Positions 3,511 through 43,296 of a stretch of 64,000 nucleotides of DNA are shown here, in pieces; within the stretch, counting starts at the first letter, position 1; the number at the start of each line of letters is the position of its first letter. The notes under the pieces were generated by a model. That model was not told where the DNA came from. It saw only the letters and a program-made list of their open reading frames with translations, and did no database searches. Origin of the DNA: Cyanobacterium sp. HL-69 (GTDB taxonomy: Bacteria; Cyanobacteriota; Cyanobacteriia; Cyanobacteriales; Cyanobacteriaceae); NCBI GenBank assembly GCA_002813895.1, contig CP024912.1:1488001-1552000 (forward strand), read 5' to 3'. The translations under genes were made by a program, and so were the position numbers.

Positions 3511-3604
3511 GAGTTAAGATACTTTATGTTTGCTTAAATTCATATCTATTGTAAGGTAAAATGGATAAGACCATATTTTAGAAAATACACAGTATAAAAA
3601 GTTT

Positions 3605-3721
3605 ATGACTCCTTCTTTATCTAATTTTCTCTGGAGCTTGTTATGGGGTGGTGCAATTGTTGTAATCCCTGCAACTGTTGGTTTAATCCTCGTGAGCCAA
3701 GCTGACAAAATTCGCCGTTAA
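3605..3721 (+). CDS. psbX: Photosystem II protein PsbX
   Basis: This 38-residue single-helix protein begins [17 protein letters not shown], continues with the helix [16 protein letters not shown] and ends ADKIRR. PsbX is a small photosystem II subunit next to cytochrome b559 that affects quinone exchange. The gene is divergent from the YggT gene (about 95 bases between starts). It is followed by a clear hairpin terminator at 3734, so it is probably transcribed alone. Confidence 0.95.
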
Positions 3722-16539: not shown

Positions 16540-17640
16540 CTATAAAAACTGTTTAATAACTTCCAAAGTTTCTTTTCCTGTTTTATCCCAGCTGAATTTT
16601 TTTACCCTTTTCAATCCCTCAGTTATTAAGTGCGATCGCACTTTATCCTTAACAATTTCATTCATAGCTTCTGCAATGTCATCCACATCATAAGGATTAA
16701 CCAATAAAGCCCCATCTCCCGCCACTTCAGGTAAAGAAGAAACATTAGAAGTAATCACAGGAGTGCCACAAGCCATCGCCTCTATTACGGGAAAACCAAA
16801 CCCTTCCCAAAGAGTAGGAAAAACAAGTGCTTGAGCCTGATTTAATACTTTAACCAATTCTTGGTCATCAAGATAATTTAAAAACTCTACCCGTTCAAAA
16901 ACTCCTAAATCACGGGCTAATTGTTTAAGTAAAGGAGTATAACGTTTATCTTCTCCTCCCACTAACCAGAATTCATAATTTTTATTATTTTTAAACTTAG
17001 CAAAAGCAGAAAGAATATTAACTAAATTTTTATGAGGATCATGTCTTCCTAAATAAACAAAATAAGGTTTTCTATTAATATCTTTTGCATCATCAATTAC
17101 TTTAAATTTATCAAAGTTATAGCCTAAATAAATAGGAGTAATTTTTTTCGCAGAAATACCATAATAATTAATTATGTCGTTAGCTGTACTTTCTGAATTA
17201 CAAATAATATGGGTTGCTTGTTCACATACTTGGGGTACATAATAACGAAAATAAGCACTTAGAGCCGATTTTTTTTGAGGAAATCTGAGGGGAATTAAAT
17301 CATGTACCATTACCACCTTAGAAAGTTTTGGCGTAAATAAGGGCAACTCAGGCACAGGGGAAAATAATAAATTTCCGTCTAATGTTCCATATATTTTAGG
17401 CAATTTAAACTGAGTCCATAATAATCGCAAAAAATGCCCTTTACTGCCATAGTCTGGACTAAATTTATCAGAAATATTATAATTACACTCAGCACTATTA
17501 ATTAAATTTTTGTTAGCTAGACTAATATTATTTAAATCTTTTAAATAAGGAAAAATGTGATTAATATAATTAGTAATTCCCGTTGGTTTTTCGATCAGCA
17601 TCGAAAAATTTAAAATTAATTTAGATTGATTATTTCTCAC
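16540..17640 (-). CDS. Glycosyltransferase family 4
   Basis: 366 residues in a GT-B fold. The C-terminal half has the GT4 hallmarks [28 protein letters not shown], the donor-binding [26 protein letters not shown] (E-x7-E form) and [18 protein letters not shown]. The N-terminal half carries HDLIPLRFP. Such enzymes act in exopolysaccharide or lipopolysaccharide assembly; the sugar is unknown. It ends 10 bases before the rluE-like gene, same strand. Confidence 0.85.
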
Positions 17641-32228: not shown

Positions 32229-32314
32229 TGTACATTAACAAATTATTTGTCATCGGTAACAAATTAGTGTCGTCTTAACAAAATAAATGACGTGATAACA
32301 GATTAATGTCGTCA
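32229..32314 (-). repeat. CAST right end, four TnsB-binding sites
   Basis: Starting from TGTACA, four ~20-bp imperfect direct repeats follow: TTAACAAATTATTTGTCATC, GGTAACAAATTAGTGTCGTC, CTTAACAAAATAAATGACGT and GATAACAGATTAATGTCGTC. The fused guide RNA runs directly up to the innermost site. Confidence 0.88.
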
Positions 32315-32558
32315 AGGCACACGGAGAGACTCGCTTTCAATTCTCTAAAAGAACTCCTCCTTGCTGGGAAGTGATTCGCTAACCGCTGGAACAGGATATC
32401 TGCATCCTTGTTGCTGAGAGTGCTCTTATTTTCTCTATCCGAAGATAGACAGCATCGGGACAATCAGTTAGCAGGAGCAGAAAGCAAACTTTTAATTCAA
32501 AGTAAACTACTCCAAATTTTCGTAGAACAGAGGTCACTAAAACTTGAACTACGGCACT
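32313..32558 (-). ncRNA. Natural single-guide RNA candidate (tracrRNA-crRNA fusion)
   Basis: This minus-strand unit is a diverged copy of the cas12k tracrRNA at 33810-34034. Shared blocks in order include GACCTCTGTT, GTAGTTTACTT, CTTTCTG, GATGCTG, CAGCAA, AATCACTTCC and CAAGGAGGAGT. It then forms a hairpin (AGTTCT, loop TTTAG, AGAATT at 32355-32339) and continues into GAAAG, the 3' end of a V-K repeat, and a guide beginning CGAGTCTCTCCGTGTGCCTT (32333 down to about 32313). In the split system the matching pairing is AGTCCCT:AGGGATT, so base changes are compensated. A TATAAT lies at 32570-32565, seven bases before the likely start. The guide resembles a tRNA T-arm plus acceptor strand, which would fit homing to a tRNA gene. 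Confidence 0.8.
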
Positions 32559-32564
32559 ACAGCT

Positions 32565-32570
32565 ATTATA
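32565..32570 (-). promoter_or_regulatory. -10 box of the fused guide RNA
   Basis: A perfect TATAAT on the minus strand about seven bases upstream of the predicted 5' end (near 32558). The -35 region is not clear. Confidence 0.5.
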
Positions 32571-32680
32571 ACCTTATAAGCCATATGGTAAGCCAATAGG
32601 ACTTATAGAAGGTATTTTGCGATTTCAACGCAACTACTAGAAAAAAAACAACCTTGGCTTTACAACTTTCAATCCCTATA

Positions 32681-33590
32681 GAACCCATTTGGTATCTTAA
32701 GAAGCAGTGAGTCTTTTTAAGAGTAGTCGAATAAAGCATAAGTTAACTTTCTGGGTAGAATTAAATAAGGTTCTTTCAAAGTTTTTGACTAAATTTTTAC
32801 ATCTTTCCATCCAGGCATTGGATCTTTCAATAATCCATCTTGCTTTGACTACCACGAAGCCCTTTTTTCTTTCTAACTTTTTCTGTTCAGGAGATATTTT
32901 GGGGGACTTTTCAATACGAATTTTTCTTCCAATTTGTGGATAAATTTTCTCTAATTCGGCCATGATAAAGCCAGGATGATAACCTGAATCGACCAAAATT
33001 GTAATTTTATGAACATTCATGGGTTTGCGACGAAAATAATCCATATGGTTGGTTAACATCATGATTAATCCTTTATCATCAGAAACGTTTGCCTTTGTAC
33101 AACAAGTGAAAAAAGGAAAGCCGAGGCTATCTACGGCTAAATGTCTTTTAATACCATTGGTCAGTTTATACCTACAGAATCCTTTACTCTCTACCCCCGC
33201 ATTACAAGTATTTTGTACTGCTTGAGAATCAATGATTATTAATCGAGTCCAAGTAGATTTTTTTTTACTTTTTCCCTTAGTTGCTTATGAAGTTCACACA
33301 TCACTATTTCAAAGATTCCCTCCTTTTTCCAGTTTTTATAATGCCAGTAAACTGTTGAATAAGGGGGTAAATCTTTAGGCAAATCAGACCAATTGCAGCC
33401 ATTTTTGAGCTGATAAAAAATACCATCCCAAATCTGCCTTTTTGACCATTTTGAGGGACAAGTTCTTTTCTTTTTTGGCAACAGAGGTTTAATTATTTCC
33501 CATTCTTGATCACTTAGACTGCTAGAGTAAGCCATTCTTCTATTTCTCTATGTTTTCATCTCAATATTCTACTAGATACCAAATGGGTTC
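32681..33590 (-). mobile_element. 910-bp IS5-family insertion sequence
   Basis: 17-bp perfect terminal inverted repeats GAACCCATTTGGTATCT (32681-32697 and 33574-33590) are flanked by TATA direct repeats. The interior holds one transposase in two frames. The insertion lies inside the first CRISPR repeat of the CAST. Confidence 0.9.
32697..33535 (-). CDS. IS5-type transposase, made by -1 frameshift
   Basis: OrfA (33535-33239) begins MAYSSSLSDQEWEIIKPLLP, the DUF4096 N-terminal domain. A run of nine A residues on the coding strand (33266-33258) allows a -1 slip into the second frame, which continues STWTRLIIIDSQAVQNT and runs to TAA at 32697. The fused protein shows the DDE set: IDSQ (first D), VDSGYHPGF (second D) and IIERSNAWMERC (E with downstream R). 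Two-frame organisation with slippery A runs is known for IS5-type groups, so the gene may be intact. Confidence 0.85.
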
Positions 33591-33809
33591 TATAGAAGGT
33601 ATTTTGCGATTTCAACGGCTTATACTTCAAAACCTTGTACAACAAGGCTTGTAAAAGCAGTTTGCGTAAACCCCCCTTAAAAATACTATAATTCTTATCT
33701 TTCATAGAATTTTGCATTTTTCTAAAACGCTATTACCTTTGATAGATATAGGTTTTAGCAATTGCGTAAGGCAAAAATACGAAATTATGTAACTCGTACA
33801 TTTGATCTA

Positions 33810-34048: not shown

Positions 34049-35932
34049 TCAAAATTTTGTGTTTCGGGGAATTTTACCCTCAGTAATATTCTGTTGGATA
34101 CTCAAAGCTAACTGTAGTGCTTTATCAGTAAATGTTCCCTGTTTAGGCTGTTTGCCCTCTCTTACGACAATACCTACCTTGGCGGAATTAGCCTTAATAT
34201 TATCAATTAATCGACCATAGCTCCACTGATGGACTTGTACACGGTAATCTTTGGCATATTTTTTTTGCCCTTCTTTATACTCAGGTATTCGCTCCTCAGC
34301 CCTAGCTTGTACTTCTGCTTCAGTAATTGATCGCATCTGGCTTAATAGAGGAATGATGATTGTTGAAACTTTATATTCTTGAGCTATTTTGAGAATAGAT
34401 TTAGCAATGAGACGATCAACGTATTCCCCCAAATTAGATTCCCCTTTCTGTTGAAAACTAGCTCTTTTCCTTGCTTTATGGTTCTGGTGATTCAATTTTT
34501 GCTTTTCATTTCTTCTTCTTCTTAGTAGATGATAGTTATCTCCCAACAATTGTTTAATGTTACGGTATAAAATTGCTTTCCCTTCACCAACGTTAACAAG
34601 AGCAAGGGTAACAGATTCTTGTAACCCCATAGCGACTCCAAGAAAAAGATTCGGATTACCCTGATAAATAGGTTTACCGGGGCGAGGGAAAATATTATTA
34701 AGTCGGGCAAGAGTTGTTTCTTTGCGTTGGATAAATTTTTTTTGAGTATCCCTTAAATCATCTTTTTCTTTCATCCCGTCAATAATATTTAAAACTTCCT
34801 TTTGCTTTCTTTGAGCAACTACTTGTGTACCTTCAACAGTCCAATAGTCGGTGTCTAAAGTACAGTGTAAATAAAGTTTATGTTTATCCCATAACTCCCC
34901 TTTTCCGTCATCTTCTTTCCAAATAATCATCGCTGAACGCAGAGTGAATAAAGCACTAGAAAATTGATTTTTGTTCGCCTTTTTCAATTCTTGATCTTCG
35001 TAGAAGCGCTGAAAATAAGGAAGTTGACGAGAATCACAATAAATTTTAAAAGTATGGTCACTTAAACCATTAAATCGAACATGGAGGCGGTTTTGATCAC
35101 TTAGACTCCATTTCAAATCTTCATTGGTTTCATAAATGACAGGATAAGGAATAGAAGGGGAATTTTTTTTCAGAGCGGAAAACCAACGATCGCACTGAGC
35201 TTGATTGAGGGGCATCGTAGTAGAAGCAAGAGAAGCAAGAATGAGAGTATCTAACCACTTTTGCTGATTTAAGTCTCTGCCAGTGGGAGCAGAAATTTCT
35301 ATTTGTTTTTTTAGTTTATGAACCTGAATCTCTACTTTCCGTTTGAGTTTCTTGTATTTTTTTTCAGTTTCTACTTTATTGTCTGGGATACTAGCACCAT
35401 TTTTGATTAGATAAACGATCGCCCCTTGAATCCGAGGATCGTTAGTTGCTTCATACTCCTTAAATAACTTATCAACAATACGCGTGTGAGAAAGAGTGCT
35501 ATCAATCTCATCGAGAATCTTTTTGGCTTGATTTTGTAACTTTTCCCAAGAACCATCAAAACACTGGAGAATTTCGGTATCAGGTTTCAACATTTCTAAC
35601 CAGCGAGTATGTCCTTGAAGTCTGAATTTATTTTTATCTTGTATCGTAAACCAAGACTCATAAACATAGTCAATCATCTTATGGACAGAAGCGTAAAAAC
35701 GAGATGGTTGTCCTTGAAAACGTTTATCTTCCTTTAGTTCAGCAATTTGTTGAGCAAGAAAATTTTTGGGCAGTTTTCCCTTTTCTTTCCACACAGAAAA
35801 ATCGGGATGTTCTGCTATTCTCATGAAGATTTCATTGATCAAAGGAGTATTTTTCTGACTCATCAACATCCAAAGAAATTGACGGGTATCAGCAGAAGCA
35901 ACCAAACGACATTGAATAGTGATTAGACTCAT
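34049..35932 (-). CDS. cas12k: Cas12k, nuclease-inactive type V-K effector
   Basis: Cas12k with tracrRNA and guide locates the target for Tn7-like insertion without cutting DNA. I start at MSLITIQCRLVASADTRQFL (627 residues), which matches the family start; the ATG at 35977 adds 15 unrelated residues and would overlap the regulatory region. Typical segments include NTPLINEI, GQPSRFYAS and HTRWLEML. The RuvC region is present but lacks catalytic acids: RuvC-I reads LGVAMGLQES (about 431-440), RuvC-II reads IIIPLLSQM (about 525-533), and the C-terminal part reads FTDKALQLAL (about 601-610). It is divergent from cvkR. Confidence 0.96.
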   Translation of the reverse strand: MSLITIQCRLVASADTRQFLWMLMSQKNTPLINEIFMRIAEHPDFSVWKEKGKLPKNFLAQQIAELKEDKRFQGQPSRFYASVHKMIDYVYESWFTIQDKNKFRLQGHTRWLEMLKPDTEILQCFDGSWEKLQNQAKKILDEIDSTLSHTRIVDKLFKEYEATNDPRIQGAIVYLIKNGASIPDNKVETEKKYKKLKRKVEIQVHKLKKQIEISAPTGRDLNQQKWLDTLILASLASTTMPLNQAQCDRWFSALKKNSPSIPYPVIYETNEDLKWSLSDQNRLHVRFNGLSDHTFKIYCDSRQLPYFQRFYEDQELKKANKNQFSSALFTLRSAMIIWKEDDGKGELWDKHKLYLHCTLDTDYWTVEGTQVVAQRKQKEVLNIIDGMKEKDDLRDTQKKFIQRKETTLARLNNIFPRPGKPIYQGNPNLFLGVAMGLQESVTLALVNVGEGKAILYRNIKQLLGDNYHLLRRRRNEKQKLNHQNHKARKRASFQQKGESNLGEYVDRLIAKSILKIAQEYKVSTIIIPLLSQMRSITEAEVQARAEERIPEYKEGQKKYAKDYRVQVHQWSYGRLIDNIKANSAKVGIVVREGKQPKQGTFTDKALQLALSIQQNITEGKIPRNTKF

Positions 35933-35961
35933 AGCATCGACAATAATGTTTAATAAAACAT

Positions 35962-35979
35962 ATTTGTATAATAACAAAT
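35962..35979. promoter_or_regulatory. Candidate CvkR operator
   Basis: ATTTGTATAATAACAAAT is a perfect 6-bp inverted repeat (ATTTGT/ACAAAT) with a 6-base spacer. It lies in the 65-bp gap between the divergent cas12k and cvkR genes, 29 bases before the cas12k start. MerR-type proteins bind such dyads, and CvkR is known to repress cas12k in Anabaena. Binding here is inferred. Confidence 0.5.
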
Positions 35980-35997: not shown

Positions 35998-36426
35998 ATG
36001 AAACAGGAAGTATTTTTTAGTAGCAAAGATATATCAAAGATTACAGGGTGTTCGCTCCGACAATTACAGTATTGGAGGGATAAGGAAGTTGTTGTACCTT
36101 TTATTGGTGCTTCGGGTACGGGAAAAACAATCTACTATTCTTCTGTGGAGTTGGTGGAGGTATCAGTAATGGTATATCTCCTTTCTGTGGGGCTAAATCT
36201 GGAGATGGTGCAAAAAATCCTCAATGATTTGAGGGCAAAAGAGCCTGATTTTACTGATAGTGGTTGTAAAAAGCGTTTTATGGTAGTAGCTGGTGATGGT
36301 ACTGTTGATTTATTGCCTTATGAACAGGAAGGGGCGATCGCTCTTTTGGAGGAAAATAAAGGAATCATTCCCCTTTGGATTGATCAAATTCATAAAATTT
36401 TAGAAATCAAAATTAATCACTGTTAA
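35998..36426 (+). CDS. cvkR: CvkR, MerR-type repressor of the V-K CAST
   Basis: 142 residues. An N-terminal winged helix-turn-helix (FFSSKDISKITGCSLRQLQYWRDKEVVVP) has the short wing GTGKTIYYSSVELVEV, followed by a helix (MVYLLSVGLNLEMVQKILNDL) and a small C-terminal domain without the Cys ligands of metal-sensing MerR proteins. Its place divergent to cas12k matches the described CvkR repressors of cyanobacterial V-K CASTs, which also act on the guide RNA genes. It carries a HIP1 site (GGGGCGATCGCTC) near its 3' end. Confidence 0.92.
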   Translation: MKQEVFFSSKDISKITGCSLRQLQYWRDKEVVVPFIGASGTGKTIYYSSVELVEVSVMVYLLSVGLNLEMVQKILNDLRAKEPDFTDSGCKKRFMVVAGDGTVDLLPYEQEGAIALLEENKGIIPLWIDQIHKILEIKINHC

Positions 36427-36461: not shown

Positions 36462-37460
36462 TTAAGCACACTTAAGAGAGTATTTTTGTTTTTCTTCTTC
36501 TATTATTAAGTTAATTATTTGTCCTGAAATATGCCACATCAGCACTGGTGGTACTGCATTTCCTATAGCCTTATATTGACGATTTTCTGAAACAACATTT
36601 AAGATAAAATCATTTGGAAATGACTGTATTCTAGCTGCTTCTCTGGGGGTAAAACGTCTATAAGAATCATCTTGTTTTAAAACTGGATCTGTGCTATTCA
36701 AACTTACTTTAGCTAAATGCGAACTTATAGTATTACACGGTTGATTTATATTTTGAACTCTTCCTTTATTCATGATTTTTTTTGCCTTCAGCATTCCCTC
36801 AATTGCTTTTTGACTAAAAAAATATTTATCTTCTATTTCATCTTCTAAAACTAACTTTAGGGGAATTTTTTCATTCGTTGTTGTCCGTTGAGGAAATTGA
36901 AATTTAAAACAATCTTCAAATTTTTTAAATCCGATAATAAAAACTCTTTCCCTCTTTTGCGGTACACCGTAATCGGAGGCATTCAATACTTGATAAGTTA
37001 CGTGATAACCAACTTTTTGAAACTCTTGGATAATCAAAGGAAAAGCTCTTTTTTTATTAGCGGATAAAATTCCTTTAACATTTTCAGCTATAAAAAATCT
37101 AGGTTGTTTCTCTTTTAAAATTCTACAAATTTCAAAAAATAATTGACCTTTTTCATCTTTAATACCTAATCTAGGGGGATTTTGAGCAACCACAGAGAAT
37201 GATTGACAAGGAAATCCTCCTACTAAAATATCGTGGTCGGGTAAATCTTTTTCATTAATATTTTTAATATCCGCAACAAGACAATTATGGCTAAAATTGG
37301 TGTTATAAATTTCAACGGCATAAGAATCATTGTCAACGGCATAAACAATTTCAGTTGGTAATTGATTATAAGTTTTGTTTAAATATTTAAAATTACCTAG
37401 TATCCCTAAATCCATTCCTCCACAACCACTAAAAAGCGATAATACTTTTAATCTCTCCAT
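36462..37460 (-). CDS. DNA (cytosine-5) methyltransferase, cargo gene 3
   Basis: 332 residues with all main C5 motifs: I LSLFSGCGGMDLG, II/III YAVDNDSYAVEIY, IV GGFPCQSFS (catalytic Cys), VI AENVKGIL, VIII QKRERVFIIGF, and X FKAIGNAVPPVLMWH-like (QYKAIGNAVPP). The target-recognition part lies between about 215 and 275. Its start overlaps the nuclease gene by 13 bases, so it is the last gene of a methyltransferase-nuclease-methyltransferase operon and is carried as CAST cargo. Confidence 0.93.
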   Translation of the reverse strand: MERLKVLSLFSGCGGMDLGILGNFKYLNKTYNQLPTEIVYAVDNDSYAVEIYNTNFSHNCLVADIKNINEKDLPDHDILVGGFPCQSFSVVAQNPPRLGIKDEKGQLFFEICRILKEKQPRFFIAENVKGILSANKKRAFPLIIQEFQKVGYHVTYQVLNASDYGVPQKRERVFIIGFKKFEDCFKFQFPQRTTTNEKIPLKLVLEDEIEDKYFFSQKAIEGMLKAKKIMNKGRVQNINQPCNTISSHLAKVSLNSTDPVLKQDDSYRRFTPREAARIQSFPNDFILNVVSENRQYKAIGNAVPPVLMWHISGQIINLIIEEEKQKYSLKCA

Positions 37461-38869
37461 AATAATAATTCCTCCTTTCGAGAATATTGTTCCGTAAATT
37501 TTATATCCACACCATCTTTGGGTGTCATCTTTATTTTGTTTGATTTGTATAATCCAACAGGATCTTGAATTAAATGTAATTCTCGATTTATTTTAGAAAT
37601 AGCAAGTCTATAAACAAAATATCGATCATTTAAAGATTCTGCCGTACTCCATTCATTTGGTGTTAGATGAAAGTTGAAAAAATTAATTTTTTTATTACTA
37701 ATTGTTGTTTTAACTTCTATGTATCTTTTTGTTTCGTCAAGTTCTACCGATTGAATATCATAACCAACTGCAAATTGTGTCGGTATTTTTTGTATTAAAT
37801 GAAGTAAATCTTCCCTATTTCCTAATTTAATCCTCATTTTTTCATGTCCTAAAACTAAACCTTCGCCAAAATCTCCAATTTCTTTTGTTTTTATTTCTTG
37901 TCCTTGTTCAAGTTTAGTGTGAAAATCACTGATAGATTCTAACACTAAATCTTGATAGCTAATAGGATCAATTCCTAAATATTTATATAAATCTGTTTTA
38001 AAAATTTCTTGATCTAATTTAGAATTTACAAACATAAACCAAGCATCATTTAATAATTTAATATCATTAATTATTAAGTTTTTCTTTTGATAAAGTGGAA
38101 GATAATCTTCAAAGATTGTTTCATTTTTAATAAAAGCAGTAATTACTTCTTGGTTATTATTATTGAGATAAAACTTATTGCCATGACAAATAAGTAAATC
38201 ACCAACAACCATATAATCTAAAATATCACCTGCATATCTAATGACATCCCCCGTCCAATCATAAGTAAGATTCTGTTTTCTATTATGAATAATTAAATGT
38301 GCAGTATTCTTTGGTTTTCTTCTTTTGTTTCTACGGATTACTCTTAAATCATTAAAGATACAATGAGTAGCTTCTGCTTTATCAATATAAAACCTACCTT
38401 GAGTTATTTTTTCTCCTTCTTGCAAAACTTTAATTATATAGCTGACGGGTTTAAATAATATTCCTTTATTTATATAATCCAGTGCTTCATGGGGTTTAAG
38501 ATAGCCCCCTGGATATTGAAAATAAAATAAAAAATACTTAAAAAATTCTACTAAATCTTGATTTAGACTAAGTTTTAAAGCTAAATTAGAAGGCTTACTT
38601 TTTTTCTTGATGGAGTCAGTTTCAATGAAGCCAAAAAAAGAAGAAATTTCTGTTCTCCAATTGTTAATAGTTTTCTCTGTTTTACTGGCATTACCCGGAA
38701 ATAATTTGATAGCTTTATTCATCGCATTTTTAAATTGATCACTGGGCATTTCAGTTAAGTTACTTAAGCAATTAGCCATATAAATTAAGACATTTTCGTT
38801 ATCGTTTTTAAAACGAGGTCTGATGTGATGAAGTCGATAAAAATTATCATGTGGTACTTGATACATCAT
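37448..38869 (-). CDS. Putative type II restriction endonuclease with DUF3883-like domain
   Basis: 473 residues. The N-terminal half is unrecognised, with RPRFKNDNENVLIYM and many aromatic residues. The C-terminal ~120 residues carry VGYDIQSVELDETKRYIEVKTT…FFNFHLTPNEWSTAE, a DUF3883-like fold with a D-x(n)-E-V-K pattern as in PD-(D/E)XK nucleases. Wedged between two cytosine methyltransferase genes, restriction is the natural role. The start codon overlaps the upstream methyltransferase stop as TAATG. Recognition sequence unknown. Confidence 0.75.
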   Translation of the reverse strand: MMYQVPHDNFYRLHHIRPRFKNDNENVLIYMANCLSNLTEMPSDQFKNAMNKAIKLFPGNASKTEKTINNWRTEISSFFGFIETDSIKKKSKPSNLALKLSLNQDLVEFFKYFLFYFQYPGGYLKPHEALDYINKGILFKPVSYIIKVLQEGEKITQGRFYIDKAEATHCIFNDLRVIRRNKRRKPKNTAHLIIHNRKQNLTYDWTGDVIRYAGDILDYMVVGDLLICHGNKFYLNNNNQEVITAFIKNETIFEDYLPLYQKKNLIINDIKLLNDAWFMFVNSKLDQEIFKTDLYKYLGIDPISYQDLVLESISDFHTKLEQGQEIKTKEIGDFGEGLVLGHEKMRIKLGNREDLLHLIQKIPTQFAVGYDIQSVELDETKRYIEVKTTISNKKINFFNFHLTPNEWSTAESLNDRYFVYRLAISKINRELHLIQDPVGLYKSNKIKMTPKDGVDIKFTEQYSRKEELLLWRD

Positions 38870-39933
38870 TATTTATTTTCCTCCAAAAAATTATAAATAG
38901 ATTCTGCTAATGCTTTTGCTAATAGAGGAGGTACAGCGTTACCAACTTGTCTATTCTGATCTGTTTTATTCCCTAAAAAACGAAAAGAATCGGGAAAAGA
39001 TTGTAATCTAGCGTGTTCCCGAACGGTGGGAACTCGATCGTATTTATAATGAAAATAATGACGATGTCCAGTATCTATAGTATTACATGGTTTTTGACTG
39101 TGATACCTTGTCCATGCAATATTAAAATTACGACTTCTCTGTAGATTTAATGGTAAGTCTTTATAGTTACCTCCTTCAGGAACAAGTTGTATTGTTTTAA
39201 TTACTTTTTCTGTATGTCTTGTGCCAATGTGATTATAGACCATATCACAATTATCTCTCATTTGTTTTTGATATTCTGATTGTGGTTGTTTAGCATATTC
39301 CATCTCTTCATAACCTATATCTCCCACTAAAGGAGGTAAATCAGATAAAGCCATTTCACAAGTAATATAATTTGTTTTCTCTAATTGAGGAGAAGGATAA
39401 GTGAATTGTTTGTTATATATATTGCCCACAAAAAAAACTCTTTTTCGTATTTGAGGAACGCCATAATCTGAAGCTAGTAAAATTTTATCTTGGACATGAT
39501 AGCCCAAAATGTTCATTTTTTCTTTGAATAATTCTTTAGCTTTACCTTTGTATAAATTAGTAAAACCAGTAACGTTTTCAAGCACAAACATTTTCGGTCT
39601 TAAATACTTTACAAATCGAATAAACTCTAAAAACAAATTATTTCTATCATCTGTAAATTCTCTTTTTCCCGCGATGGAAAAACCTTGACATGGTGGACCA
39701 CCGATCACTAAATCTATCGAGCCATATTTTTCAATTATTGATTTCGGATTAATATTTCTTATATCTTCATGCACAATACTAATATTAGGCTTATTAAAAT
39801 GAAGTGTTTCTAATGCTTTTTTATCACTATCAATTGCCAATTTTATTTCAAATTTATTAGTTAATTCAAAACCATAGCTAAGACCTCCACAGCCAGAAAA
39901 TAAATCTACAACAATGTATTTTTTGTATTTCAT
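38869..39933 (-). CDS. DNA (cytosine-5) methyltransferase, cargo gene 1
   Basis: 354 residues: motif I VDLFSGCGGLSYGF, IV IGGPPCQGFSIAG (catalytic Cys), VI LENVTGF, VIII QIRKRVFFVG, and the end motif RQVGNAVPPLLA. It is clearly different from the 36462 protein, so the operon has two methyltransferases. Two m5C enzymes with one nuclease often mean an asymmetric recognition site, one enzyme per strand; here that is inference. It begins 79 bases after tniQ. Confidence 0.93.
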   Translation of the reverse strand: MKYKKYIVVDLFSGCGGLSYGFELTNKFEIKLAIDSDKKALETLHFNKPNISIVHEDIRNINPKSIIEKYGSIDLVIGGPPCQGFSIAGKREFTDDRNNLFLEFIRFVKYLRPKMFVLENVTGFTNLYKGKAKELFKEKMNILGYHVQDKILLASDYGVPQIRKRVFFVGNIYNKQFTYPSPQLEKTNYITCEMALSDLPPLVGDIGYEEMEYAKQPQSEYQKQMRDNCDMVYNHIGTRHTEKVIKTIQLVPEGGNYKDLPLNLQRSRNFNIAWTRYHSQKPCNTIDTGHRHYFHYKYDRVPTVREHARLQSFPDSFRFLGNKTDQNRQVGNAVPPLLAKALAESIYNFLEENK

Positions 39934-40012: not shown

Positions 40013-40492
40013 TTAATCGTGCTTCATTTCAGCAAAAGGAGTAAAACATCTATGACACCAACCATCAATCCATAGACTAGGAATCTTAAATCTAGCACCA
40101 CAATGGGGGCATTCCGATAATAGTTTTAGTTGATGCCGATCGCAACTATAAACCTCCTTATACTGCCATTTCATGCGATGATAAGGCTTTTCACCATAAC
40201 AAGCCGAACAAAGACGGATGGGAGTCATTTTCATCGGTGCAGAAGGACACATCATTTGTAAGGTTGCTACATCCACTTGTATGACCGCACTTAACTTTTC
40301 CAACTGTTCAATGGAAGGAGGGGGATTAAAACGGAACTTTTCCCAACGGGCGATCGCACTATATAAACCAGTTATTTCACCCAACCCAGAAACAGTAAGC
40401 ACATTCTCCCTTCTAAACCTTCCCAGGAAATGACTAATACTTTCATCCTCATAAGGTGTTACGGTAAACCACCAAGGCTCAATTTCCATCAT
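40013..40492 (-). CDS. tniQ: TniQ, CAST target-complex adaptor
   Basis: 159 residues, the short TniQ of V-K systems. The N-terminal motif is PYEDESISHFLGRFRRENVL. Two zinc-finger-type Cys/His groups follow: CSACYGEKPYHRMKW…CDRHQ and CPHCGARF…WCHRC. TniQ links the Cas12k R-loop to the TnsC filament. Its start overlaps the tnsC stop by 4 bases, implying coupled translation. Confidence 0.94.
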   Translation of the reverse strand: MMEIEPWWFTVTPYEDESISHFLGRFRRENVLTVSGLGEITGLYSAIARWEKFRFNPPPSIEQLEKLSAVIQVDVATLQMMCPSAPMKMTPIRLCSACYGEKPYHRMKWQYKEVYSCDRHQLKLLSECPHCGARFKIPSLWIDGWCHRCFTPFAEMKHD

Positions 40493-41316
40493 TTATACTC
40501 CTGTACAACTTCCTTTAAAGTGTCATAATCAATCTTGTTAAGTCCCTTCTTCAGAGAACGAATCGCAGCATCACGCAAAACCATATCCATAATGCCGATG
40601 TAACCCTGAGTCGCCTCTCCAATCAATTTCAACATCCTTTTATTCGTTAAATTAGAAGCCACAGGTAGCTTCAACACCTGTTTCTCCCAAATGTTGACAG
40701 TACGACTAAATTCTTCTCCCCCTAACTTACCAAACCGATAACAAGCCCGAAAACGATTATAAACTTGCTCATCCTTTTTTACTACCGCATCCAAACGATC
40801 TGTACCCACAAGAACAATCGCAATATTGAGATGATCAAAAATATCCCGAATTTCGGCAAAAGTCTTTGGTTTACAGCGATCTGCCTCATCAAAAATGATC
40901 ATCTCTACACCACATCCTTGCAATACTGTCATCGCCCTTTTTCTGATTTCAGCTACCGTACCCTTAGTCATCTGATACTTGAGGTGTTCAATAATTCCTT
41001 GAAATAAATCTTTTGCTCCACATTCTTGGGGTACTTGTAAATAAATTACTGGAACTTGAGGAGGTTTACCCTTCTCTTGAATTGGCTTATGTCTCAAACG
41101 ATAAGAATTACACGCAATAGTTTTCCCCGTACGAGATTCCCCCACCACTCGACAAGACTGTTTCGATTGACGCTTACTTTCCAACCATTCATGAAGTATC
41201 GCAACTTGCTCTAAACTTACCACCGTTTTACCCTCTAATCTTTTGATCTCCTCCTGTAGATTTGCTTCAGGGACATCAATCTTACCCAATTGTTCTGCTA
41301 CATTTTCCGCTTTCAT
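40489..41316 (-). CDS. tnsC: TnsC, AAA+ regulator of transposition
   Basis: 275 residues, matching V-K TnsC. Walker A is in RVVGESRTGKTIACNSYRL (about residues 57-75), Walker B is MIIFDEADR (about 137-145), and the sensor-1 region reads IAIVLVGTDRLDAVV. TnsC polymerises on DNA with ATP and recruits TnsB. It lies 9 bases after tnsB and overlaps tniQ. Confidence 0.95.
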   Translation of the reverse strand: MKAENVAEQLGKIDVPEANLQEEIKRLEGKTVVSLEQVAILHEWLESKRQSKQSCRVVGESRTGKTIACNSYRLRHKPIQEKGKPPQVPVIYLQVPQECGAKDLFQGIIEHLKYQMTKGTVAEIRKRAMTVLQGCGVEMIIFDEADRCKPKTFAEIRDIFDHLNIAIVLVGTDRLDAVVKKDEQVYNRFRACYRFGKLGGEEFSRTVNIWEKQVLKLPVASNLTNKRMLKLIGEATQGYIGIMDMVLRDAAIRSLKKGLNKIDYDTLKEVVQEYK

Positions 41317-41325
41317 GGCTAACCC

Positions 41326-42933
41326 CTAAAAATCGAAATCTTCTTGTAGTTCTTCATAGTCAACAACCTCCACCCAATGATCATCAGAAAAACCAGAAGG
41401 CTCATCTTCTAGTTCCGTTGTTTTCAAGACAGGGGAAGGTATGGAAGGCTTGACTCGTTCTTGTTCCTCTTTCTGTCGTTGTTTTTTCGTTTTCTTCACT
41501 GTAAAGTTCGAGCGTTCCTCTACCTCCATCAAAATGCTACGATTACTCAAACTTCTTCCAGCATTTCTTACTCTTTTAGCACTAGCTTTCGCATCGATCA
41601 AGGATAAAGACTCACACTCTAAATCCACCGCATAGGCACGAGTCAGGAAAACCTCTTTATTATTCTCACGACGATATACTAAAATGCTTGTAATATCCCT
41701 AGGGTCATAGCGAATGATGATAGTTTCTCCTTCATAACCTGCGAGATATTCTCCCTTATAAATCAGATTTTCAAATTGGAGATGACCACCCTTTTGCACT
41801 CTTCTCCGTGACTGTTTCATTAAGCAAATATCTAACTCTCGTTCAGAAAGAATATGTGGCACAGAAAGTAATCCAGCTTCCCAACGCACAAAACGAGTTT
41901 GTTCTCCCATACGAGCATCAAGACGTTGATTGTAGTTATCCACAATGTAGCGGACAATTAGTTTCTCCAAATCTTTCAACGTTAAACAGGCTTCCTTTTC
42001 CGCATCCTCTGGACGTTCTTGAACATTACCACCTGTATATCCTGGTAAAGTAGAAAATACCTCCGTGTTCAAGGTTTTAAAAGGACGTTCTACCACACCA
42101 CCCTCACTAGGGCGACTGCGTAAATGACAAGTAAAACCTAACTGTAAGCTGATTTGTTGAAGATGATTAGAACGAAAATCTTTACCGCCGTCAGTGTAAA
42201 AATACTCAGGTTTACCATAAGTTCCCCAATCCTCGTGTAGTCCATAGTCAGAACTATAACTTTTGGGTAAAATAGCGTGACGTAGAGCCAAAGCAACCAC
42301 TTGGGAACTAGGGGCATCAAAACCAAGATGTATACCCATAATACAGCGAGAATAAGTATCTATTACTGTGGTTAGCCAAGGTCTGCCTAATAATTCACCA
42401 AATTTATCTACGAGAAGAATATCAGCTCGAGTATGGTCACATTGCCACACATGATTACTATACTCCACATTAATATCTGTCCCTGCTCTGGTGGATACAG
42501 CTAACCTTGTACCTCTCCACCCCGGACTTCTAACCCTTTTCTTATTTTCTTTTTCAGCAATAATTGGATTGAGGATACGATACACCGTCATGTGAGAGGG
42601 AGGGTTGATACCCCAATTCTCGGCTTGAGCGAATGCCCGTAAATAAACTTGCTTGGGAGTAATTCTTCGACTACCTTTATTGCCTTCCCGATAAGTCTTA
42701 ACAATAAAATCCTGCAATCGTCTATCAATTCTATAAGATCCCTTATCTGCTCGATTATTTTGGGCGATGCCATGCAAACCATCTTTTTCCCATTGTTTGA
42801 CATATCTTTGGATAGTGCGAACTGACTTATTCAATTGGATTGATGCTCGTTTTAACTTTTCCCCATAAGTTTTGCGGTCACGAAGTGGCAGGCTTCGCCT
42901 GATCGCACGGCTCCAGTAAGTCTTCAATGACAT
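41326..42933 (-). CDS. tnsB: TnsB, DDE transposase (5' end frameshifted)
   Basis: TnsB cuts and joins the transposon 3' ends. The frame holds an HTH region (LNKSVRTIQRYVKQWEKDGLHG), the DDE residues in VWQCDHTRADILLVD, YTDGGKDFRS and SEGGVVERPFKTLN, a beta-barrel domain, and a C-terminal TnsC-recruiting tail. The first ~19 residues from this ATG (MSLKTYWSRAIRRSLPLRD) are an out-of-frame product of a 25-bp insertion at 42876-42900. Without it the frame continues upstream to an ATG at 43003 with AGGAG 8 bases before it. The original protein would be about 550 residues. The present gene either restarts here and makes an N-truncated protein or is non-functional. Confidence 0.9.
   Translation of the reverse strand: MSLKTYWSRAIRRSLPLRDRKTYGEKLKRASIQLNKSVRTIQRYVKQWEKDGLHGIAQNNRADKGSYRIDRRLQDFIVKTYREGNKGSRRITPKQVYLRAFAQAENWGINPPSHMTVYRILNPIIAEKENKKRVRSPGWRGTRLAVSTRAGTDINVEYSNHVWQCDHTRADILLVDKFGELLGRPWLTTVIDTYSRCIMGIHLGFDAPSSQVVALALRHAILPKSYSSDYGLHEDWGTYGKPEYFYTDGGKDFRSNHLQQISLQLGFTCHLRSRPSEGGVVERPFKTLNTEVFSTLPGYTGGNVQERPEDAEKEACLTLKDLEKLIVRYIVDNYNQRLDARMGEQTRFVRWEAGLLSVPHILSERELDICLMKQSRRRVQKGGHLQFENLIYKGEYLAGYEGETIIIRYDPRDITSILVYRRENNKEVFLTRAYAVDLECESLSLIDAKASAKRVRNAGRSLSNRSILMEVEERSNFTVKKTKKQRQKEEQERVKPSIPSPVLKTTELEDEPSGFSDDHWVEVVDYEELQEDFDF
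42876..42900. repeat. 25-bp double palindrome inserted in a HIP1 site in tnsB
   Basis: The insert carries two small hairpins, AGGC-GAA-GCCT and CAC-TTC-GTG (minus strand). Removing exactly 25 bases rejoins TTTGC and GATCGC into TTTGCGATCGC, restoring a HIP1 octamer and the tnsB frame (EPCD-RKTYG, as in the Scytonema protein's EPCDRTTYG). Short palindromes at HIP1 sites are common in cyanobacteria. Confidence 0.85.
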
Positions 42934-43058: not shown

Positions 43059-43296
43059 TACGACATACAATTTGTTAATGACCACTTTTCAAACAAAAAA
43101 TCGCCTAATTGAAAGGCGACATATAATTTGTTATATTTCAGGAAAACGACACTTAATTTGTTAACTTAATCTGAAAGACTGTTAAACCTGATTTAGGAAG
43201 AATATAACTGACAATACTTGATATGCAAGGATTTGAAGGGTCTTAGTTGTAGATGACACTAATCTGTTATCACGTCATTTAATCTGTTACTGTACA
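43059..43296 (-). repeat. CAST left end with TnsB-binding sites
   Basis: From TGTACA at 43296 inward: GTAACAGATTAAATGACGT and GATAACAGATTAGTGTCATC (43292-43255), an ~90-bp gap, then TTAACAAATTAAGTGTCGTT (43164-43145), ATAACAAATTATATGTCGCC and TTAACAAATTGTATGTCGTAC (to 43059). A small hairpin TCGCC/GGCGA lies at 43101-43119. The tnsB start is 56 bases further in, so its promoter overlaps these sites, a layout that would allow TnsB autorepression. Confidence 0.85.

Follow-up and report, generated by a model that had tools for sequence, protein, structure and literature searches.

Engineered single-guide RNAs (sgRNAs) of type V-K CASTs such as ShCAST are composed of the 3' end of the tracrRNA, a short loop, the 3' segment of the repeat and then the guide. 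Natural V-K elements, as presented in reviews and in the paper on cvkR, home by means of a separate truncated repeat followed by a 17-nt spacer (PMC9938897), and the origin of this delocalised crRNA is listed as unclear in a 2024 review (PMC11656645). No earlier report of a natural sgRNA in V-K elements was found in the literature searched, the coverage of which was incomplete.

This article describes a V-K CAST of Cyanobacterium sp. HL-69 in which a second tracrRNA-like body, a linker hairpin, a repeat tail and a guide are fused. Very probably this feature serves CAST homing as a natural single-guide RNA. Five features of the sequence carry the proposal: the fused architecture, its conservation, the covariation of base pairs, the agreement of guides with PAM-flanked tRNA genes and the weak pairing of the repeat tail with the first tracrRNA (tracrRNA-1). 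The RNA would be transcribed, loaded into Cas12k as an uncut molecule and used for transposition.

Organisation of the element and its fused RNA

The window, that is, the whole stretch of 64,000 nucleotides analysed, contains a complete type V-K CAST bounded by TGTACA at 32229 and at 43296. Its genes for Cas12k, TnsB, TnsC and TniQ match V-K models (PADLOC), and the element has a tracrRNA 3' of cas12k and 37-nt repeats ending TTGAAAG. Encoded on the minus strand are tnsB (41326–42933), tnsC (40489–41316), tniQ (40013–40492), a cargo composed of a type II restriction-modification system with two C5 methyltransferases and a BpuJI-like endonuclease (36462–39933), and cas12k (34049–35977; Cas12k model, E 2e-249). 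A MerR-type regulator (35998–36426, plus strand; Pfam MerR_1) occupies the cvkR position, placed as in PMC9938897. Both termini carry TnsB-type repeats; the distal end spans 43130–43296 and the tRNA-proximal end, which is equal in the other copies of this genome, 32229–32316 (both minus strand). The first-pass annotation assigned the feature to the right end; the location in a transposon end holds, and this tRNA-proximal end is the one called 'left end' in PMC9938897.

The order of parts 3' of cas12k is tracrRNA, remnant array split by an insertion sequence, TATAAT, second tracrRNA-like body, linker hairpin, TTGAAAG and guide. The conventional tracrRNA (34030–33815, minus strand) lies directly 3' of cas12k, matches the tracrRNA profile and pairs with the array repeat at -12.5 kcal/mol; its 3' end reads AGTCCCT, and the 37-nt array repeat ends AGGGATTGAAAG. 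The remnant array (32604–33617, minus strand) consists of a 37-nt repeat 1, one 36-nt spacer and a degenerate repeat 2. Within repeat 1 lies an IS4/5-like insertion sequence (32676–33595, minus strand; Pfam DUF4096 and DDE_Tnp_1; 22-nt inverted repeats), which probably broke the array; the TATAAT that belongs to the fused RNA further downstream is retained. The array spacer, compared by eye with the window copy's own flank, gave no match, and an Rfam scan of 25–50 kb of the window matched no family.

The fused RNA occupies 32557–32317 of the minus strand, inside the tRNA-proximal end. Reading along this strand, a predicted -10 element, TATAAT, is present at 32570–32565 and is followed by the sgRNA scaffold (32557–32334), in which a tracrRNA-like body beginning GTGCCG at 32557 is connected through the linker to the repeat tail TTGAAAG, the GAAAG of which ends at 32334. 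The linker hairpin AGTTCTT-TTA-GAGAATT (32339–32355) joins anti-repeat to repeat tail, and RNAfold gives it 7 bp with a closing U-G and -3.5 kcal/mol. The guide, CGAGTCTCTCCGTGTGC (32317–32333), is followed after about 2 nt by the first of the TnsB-type repeats. The two tracrRNAs of the window are 71% identical over a 208-nt alignment. The fused tracrRNA, linker and guide are encoded as one uninterrupted unit, the arrangement of a single-guide RNA.

Most of this had been proposed beforehand: the first-pass annotation described a second, diverged tracrRNA running unbroken through a hairpin into GAAAG and a guide, with a TATAAT before it, and all of these parts were found at the locus, the guide being 17 nt long instead of the suggested 20 or so. 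The paired change that it reported, from AGTCCCT/AGGGATT to AGTTCT/AGAATT, is real and can be seen by comparison with the ends of the linked tracrRNA and of the array repeat. The minimum free energy of the whole window RNA, folded without pseudoknots, is no lower than that of shuffled sequences (z -0.64).

Fused and conventional loci compared

Across the class, 390 genomes were scanned twice by pattern and showed the fused form only in family f1 and, with the looser pattern, in G026; an order-wide scan of 391 genomes added f19 and f24; such scans miss diverged forms and the counts are lower bounds. A search of other V-K elements for tracrRNA fused to a guide had been advised at the outset, and full-length fused loci number 15, in 12 genomes of four GTDB families (f1, f19, f24 and f13). 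Nine belong to f1 (three in this genome, namely the window copy, L011 and L009; two in G014; one each in G007, G008, G011 and G012), those of f24 and f19 are in G037, G605, G515, G602 and G599, and that of f13 is in G026. The TATAAT stands 7 nt upstream of the body in six of the nine f1 loci, with one-base variants nearby in the other three. A search of plasmid records for the fused sgRNA returned none. Several pattern matches were discarded: G206, from a class-wide scan, is by eye not tracrRNA-like and was absent from the second scan; G528 and G700 are ordinary tracrRNAs with a chance TGAAAG, their guides having at least 7 mismatches; and L098, L100 and L106 are ordinary tracrRNAs with a chance tail, the true homing guide of L106 lying further on. 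In L172, at about 3600–3700, a second TGAAAG with a guide-like stretch follows the fused RNA and is perhaps an older homing guide.

It had been argued that relatives lacking the hairpin and tail would speak against the feature; instead, body, linker, tail and guide are kept in the four families. The structure of the tracrRNA-like blocks, on which the same argument depended, is conserved as well: an alignment of 14 fused RNAs has 51 consensus pairs, of which 18 are altered on both sides, although these sequences are related and the events not independent. Linker stems cannot be aligned between lineages, distinct ones being present in f1, f24/f19 and f13, with predicted energies of -2.9 to -8.7 kcal/mol in f1, G037/G605 and G026, and weak stems (about -0.7 kcal/mol) in G515, G602 and G599. 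Most fused loci with the whole region available keep the first tracrRNA and an array upstream, which agrees with the origin by tracrRNA duplication put forward initially.

Conventional loci were taken from 80 named V-K loci plus L071, of which 55 had a downstream match at no more than 2 mismatches; L101, with a split tracrRNA, was left out. All 55 have a single tracrRNA and the tail-guide unit follows it at 192–1626 nt, whereas in fused loci only 13–28 nt separate the tracrRNA end from the repeat tail. The contrast drawn at first with a delocalised crRNA that uses a common tracrRNA holds against these 55 loci and against the reviews consulted. In seven genomes tracrRNA-1 pairs with the array repeat at -8.3 to -12.5 kcal/mol versus -0.6 to -4.3 kcal/mol with the fused tail. 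The short gap and this weak predicted pairing do not fit a separate RNA served by a common tracrRNA.

These figures bear on the alternative that survives best, namely that a conventional delocalised crRNA lies by chance just 3' of a duplicated, non-functional tracrRNA and that the common tracrRNA serves it in trans. In its favour, the last 12–13 nt look like the known truncated repeat and the 17-nt guide like its anchor spacer (PMC9938897), and G599 has a fused tail whose pairing with tracrRNA-1 is about as good as with its own anti-repeat. In the other six genomes, however, the tail pairs better with the adjoining anti-repeat; moreover, the second tracrRNA body is conserved with covariation, and in L009 the stretch from cas12k to the fused RNA contains no separate tracrRNA. 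Such a chance arrangement is considered unlikely.

Guides, tRNA genes and the history of the copies

Matches to each guide were sought in the 430 bases 3' of it. In 14 of the 15 fused loci the flank contains a guide-like site in a tRNA gene (identified by eye) with a GTN PAM, the sequence before the site being GGTT, AGTT or GGTG. Matches are 17/17 in five loci, that of G008 among them, 16/17 in six and 15/17 in one, so that a 17-nt guide with a GTN PAM and an adjoining tRNA gene, as expected for homing, occurs at 0–2 mismatches in 12 of the 15. As controls, exchanging guides between elements gave a match with no more than 2 mismatches in 2 of 202 pairs, and using 17-mers taken from the RNA bodies did so in 1 of 3230. 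The distance from PAM to transposon end is 51–63 bp in eight of the ten loci measured, with extremes of 42 and 114; in published conventional V-K elements it is 46–82, with one at 147 (PMC9938897). Guides vary with the adjoining tRNA, also among the copies in this genome. Most single mismatches oppose a guide T to a target C, which rU:dG wobble might tolerate.

A different use of these guides would be regulatory, with Cas12k, which is without nuclease activity, repressing a promoter; experiments have shown such a role for tracr-L of type II-A systems, a natural single guide by which the cas promoter is repressed (PMC11417352). Yet the fused guides match 3' ends of tRNA genes adjoining the element, with a PAM and a spacing compatible with insertion, and on these flank matches a regulatory function is judged very unlikely.

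Some observations weigh against a homing sgRNA. The window guide has no site in its own flank (7 mismatches). In G007 the guide matches its flank at only 13/17 (4 mismatches) and cas12k looks broken; in G605 only the first 12 nt match, with 5 mismatches in all, and the locus is counted as a seed match only. RNase III could also separate the two halves of the RNA in vivo.

The window guide is best placed, among PAM-flanked sites of the genome, at the 3' end of a tRNA-Leu gene (G000:C1:2216093; 15/17, GTT PAM), that is, 2 of 17 nt off its nearest tRNA, and this gene is already occupied by L011. The genome has two further full fused copies and one partial copy (L005, in which only hairpin, tail and guide are retained), beside tRNA-Leu genes matching their guides. 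Flanks of single elements do not match as target duplications would; the one exception is the 5-bp TGGGG common to the proximal flank of the window copy and the distal flank of L009. When joined, these two flanks give one uninterrupted reading frame, usher-like by eye, and therefore both ends appear to have once been the borders of one insertion into a protein gene, later separated, it would seem, by recombination or replicative transposition between copies. The window copy, which does not adjoin a tRNA gene, belongs to this insertion in common with L009, so that its own guide did not, on this reconstruction, place it. Structure assigns the window copy to the family; it is its relatives that provide the evidence for homing.

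In L009 cas12k is followed only by the fused RNA (16989–17318), array and separate tracrRNA being absent, and the guide matches at 16/17. The first 43 nt of this RNA are identical to tracrRNA-1, after which it continues as the fused RNA; the copy is best read as the product of a crossover that removed tracrRNA-1 and the array. Reduced forms were also observed. L011 (1247–1577), which adjoins a tRNA-Leu gene, consists of a solo proximal end in which the fused RNA is intact; it has no cas12k or tns genes nearby, and a solo distal end lies 350 kb from it (G000:C1:1867912–1868057). L068 (7542–8292) is a mini-element of about 750 bp having both ends, the hairpin, the tail and a guide with one mismatch to the adjoining tRNA, and devoid of transposition genes and tracrRNA body.

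That the fused RNA is an unexpressed relic, merely preserved by older insertions, is hardly credible: the window copy does lie away from its guide's target, cas12k is damaged in G007 and L011 comprises only solo ends, but conservation in four families, linker stems that differ and guides newly matched to other tRNA genes point to continued selection.

Origin and relation to known systems

The Cas12k proteins of 11 fused loci (f1, f19 and f24) group as a single clade in a tree of 117 rows (support 0.96–0.98). That of G026 falls outside in the best tree, and placing it inside is not rejected (p-AU 0.48). In the tracrRNA tree the two copies of G026 are sisters and a single clade of all fused RNAs is rejected (p-AU 0.035), while f1 together with f19/f24, excluding G026, is not (p-AU 0.13). 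A single origin of all fused RNAs is opposed by the tracrRNA tree but compatible with the Cas12k tree. G026 may well represent a second origin; gene conversion is a real alternative, because the RNA of L009 begins with the 43 nt identical to tracrRNA-1. The chances are about even that natural sgRNAs evolved more than once in V-K CASTs (f1/f19/f24 and G026), turning two-RNA into one-RNA homing, and that some elements (L009), having lost array and separate tracrRNA, now live as one-RNA CASTs that serve homing only.

Under the favoured reading, a natural sgRNA for homing, the tracrRNA of an ancestral V-K CAST would have been duplicated beside the transposon end and the copy fused with the truncated repeat that belongs to the homing guide, the intermolecular repeat:anti-repeat duplex becoming an intramolecular hairpin. 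Transcription of the fused RNA would be driven by its own -10 element or, where the array was lost, by the tracrRNA promoter 3' of cas12k. It would bind Cas12k with no other RNA and direct insertion about 50–60 bp from a GTN PAM in a tRNA gene, and the array and its own tracrRNA would remain for other targets.

If this is true, homing and array guides divide labour and a programmable transposon has a naturally evolved counterpart of engineered sgRNAs. The natural linkers would offer compact V-K CAST tools designs already shaped by evolution, elements with nothing but the sgRNA, such as L009, hint at the small amount of RNA that homing requires of a CAST, and loci with a duplicated tracrRNA plus an array may inform the origin of the delocalised crRNA.

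The fused RNA shares with the delocalised crRNA of V-K elements (R* of about 12–13 nt plus a 17-nt anchor spacer) the tRNA-proximal position, guide length, GTN PAM and tRNA target, together with a similar PAM-to-end distance (PMC9938897; PMC12719977). The delocalised crRNA is, however, a separate RNA in need of the common tracrRNA, whereas the fused RNA has a second tracrRNA joined by a hairpin. CAST variants that have no array and just a delocalised crRNA (PMC11656645) resemble L009, which differs in that cas12k and its fused RNA have no separate tracrRNA between them either. The tracr-L of Streptococcus pyogenes type II-A is likewise one natural RNA that acts by itself as tracrRNA and guide (PMC11417352), but it is made from an alternative promoter of the tracrRNA and directs Cas9 to repress the cas promoter, with neither transposition nor a duplicated tracrRNA. 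Unlike engineered V-K sgRNAs, the fused RNA is encoded by the transposon and has an evolved linker stem and, in most f1 loci, its own -10 element.
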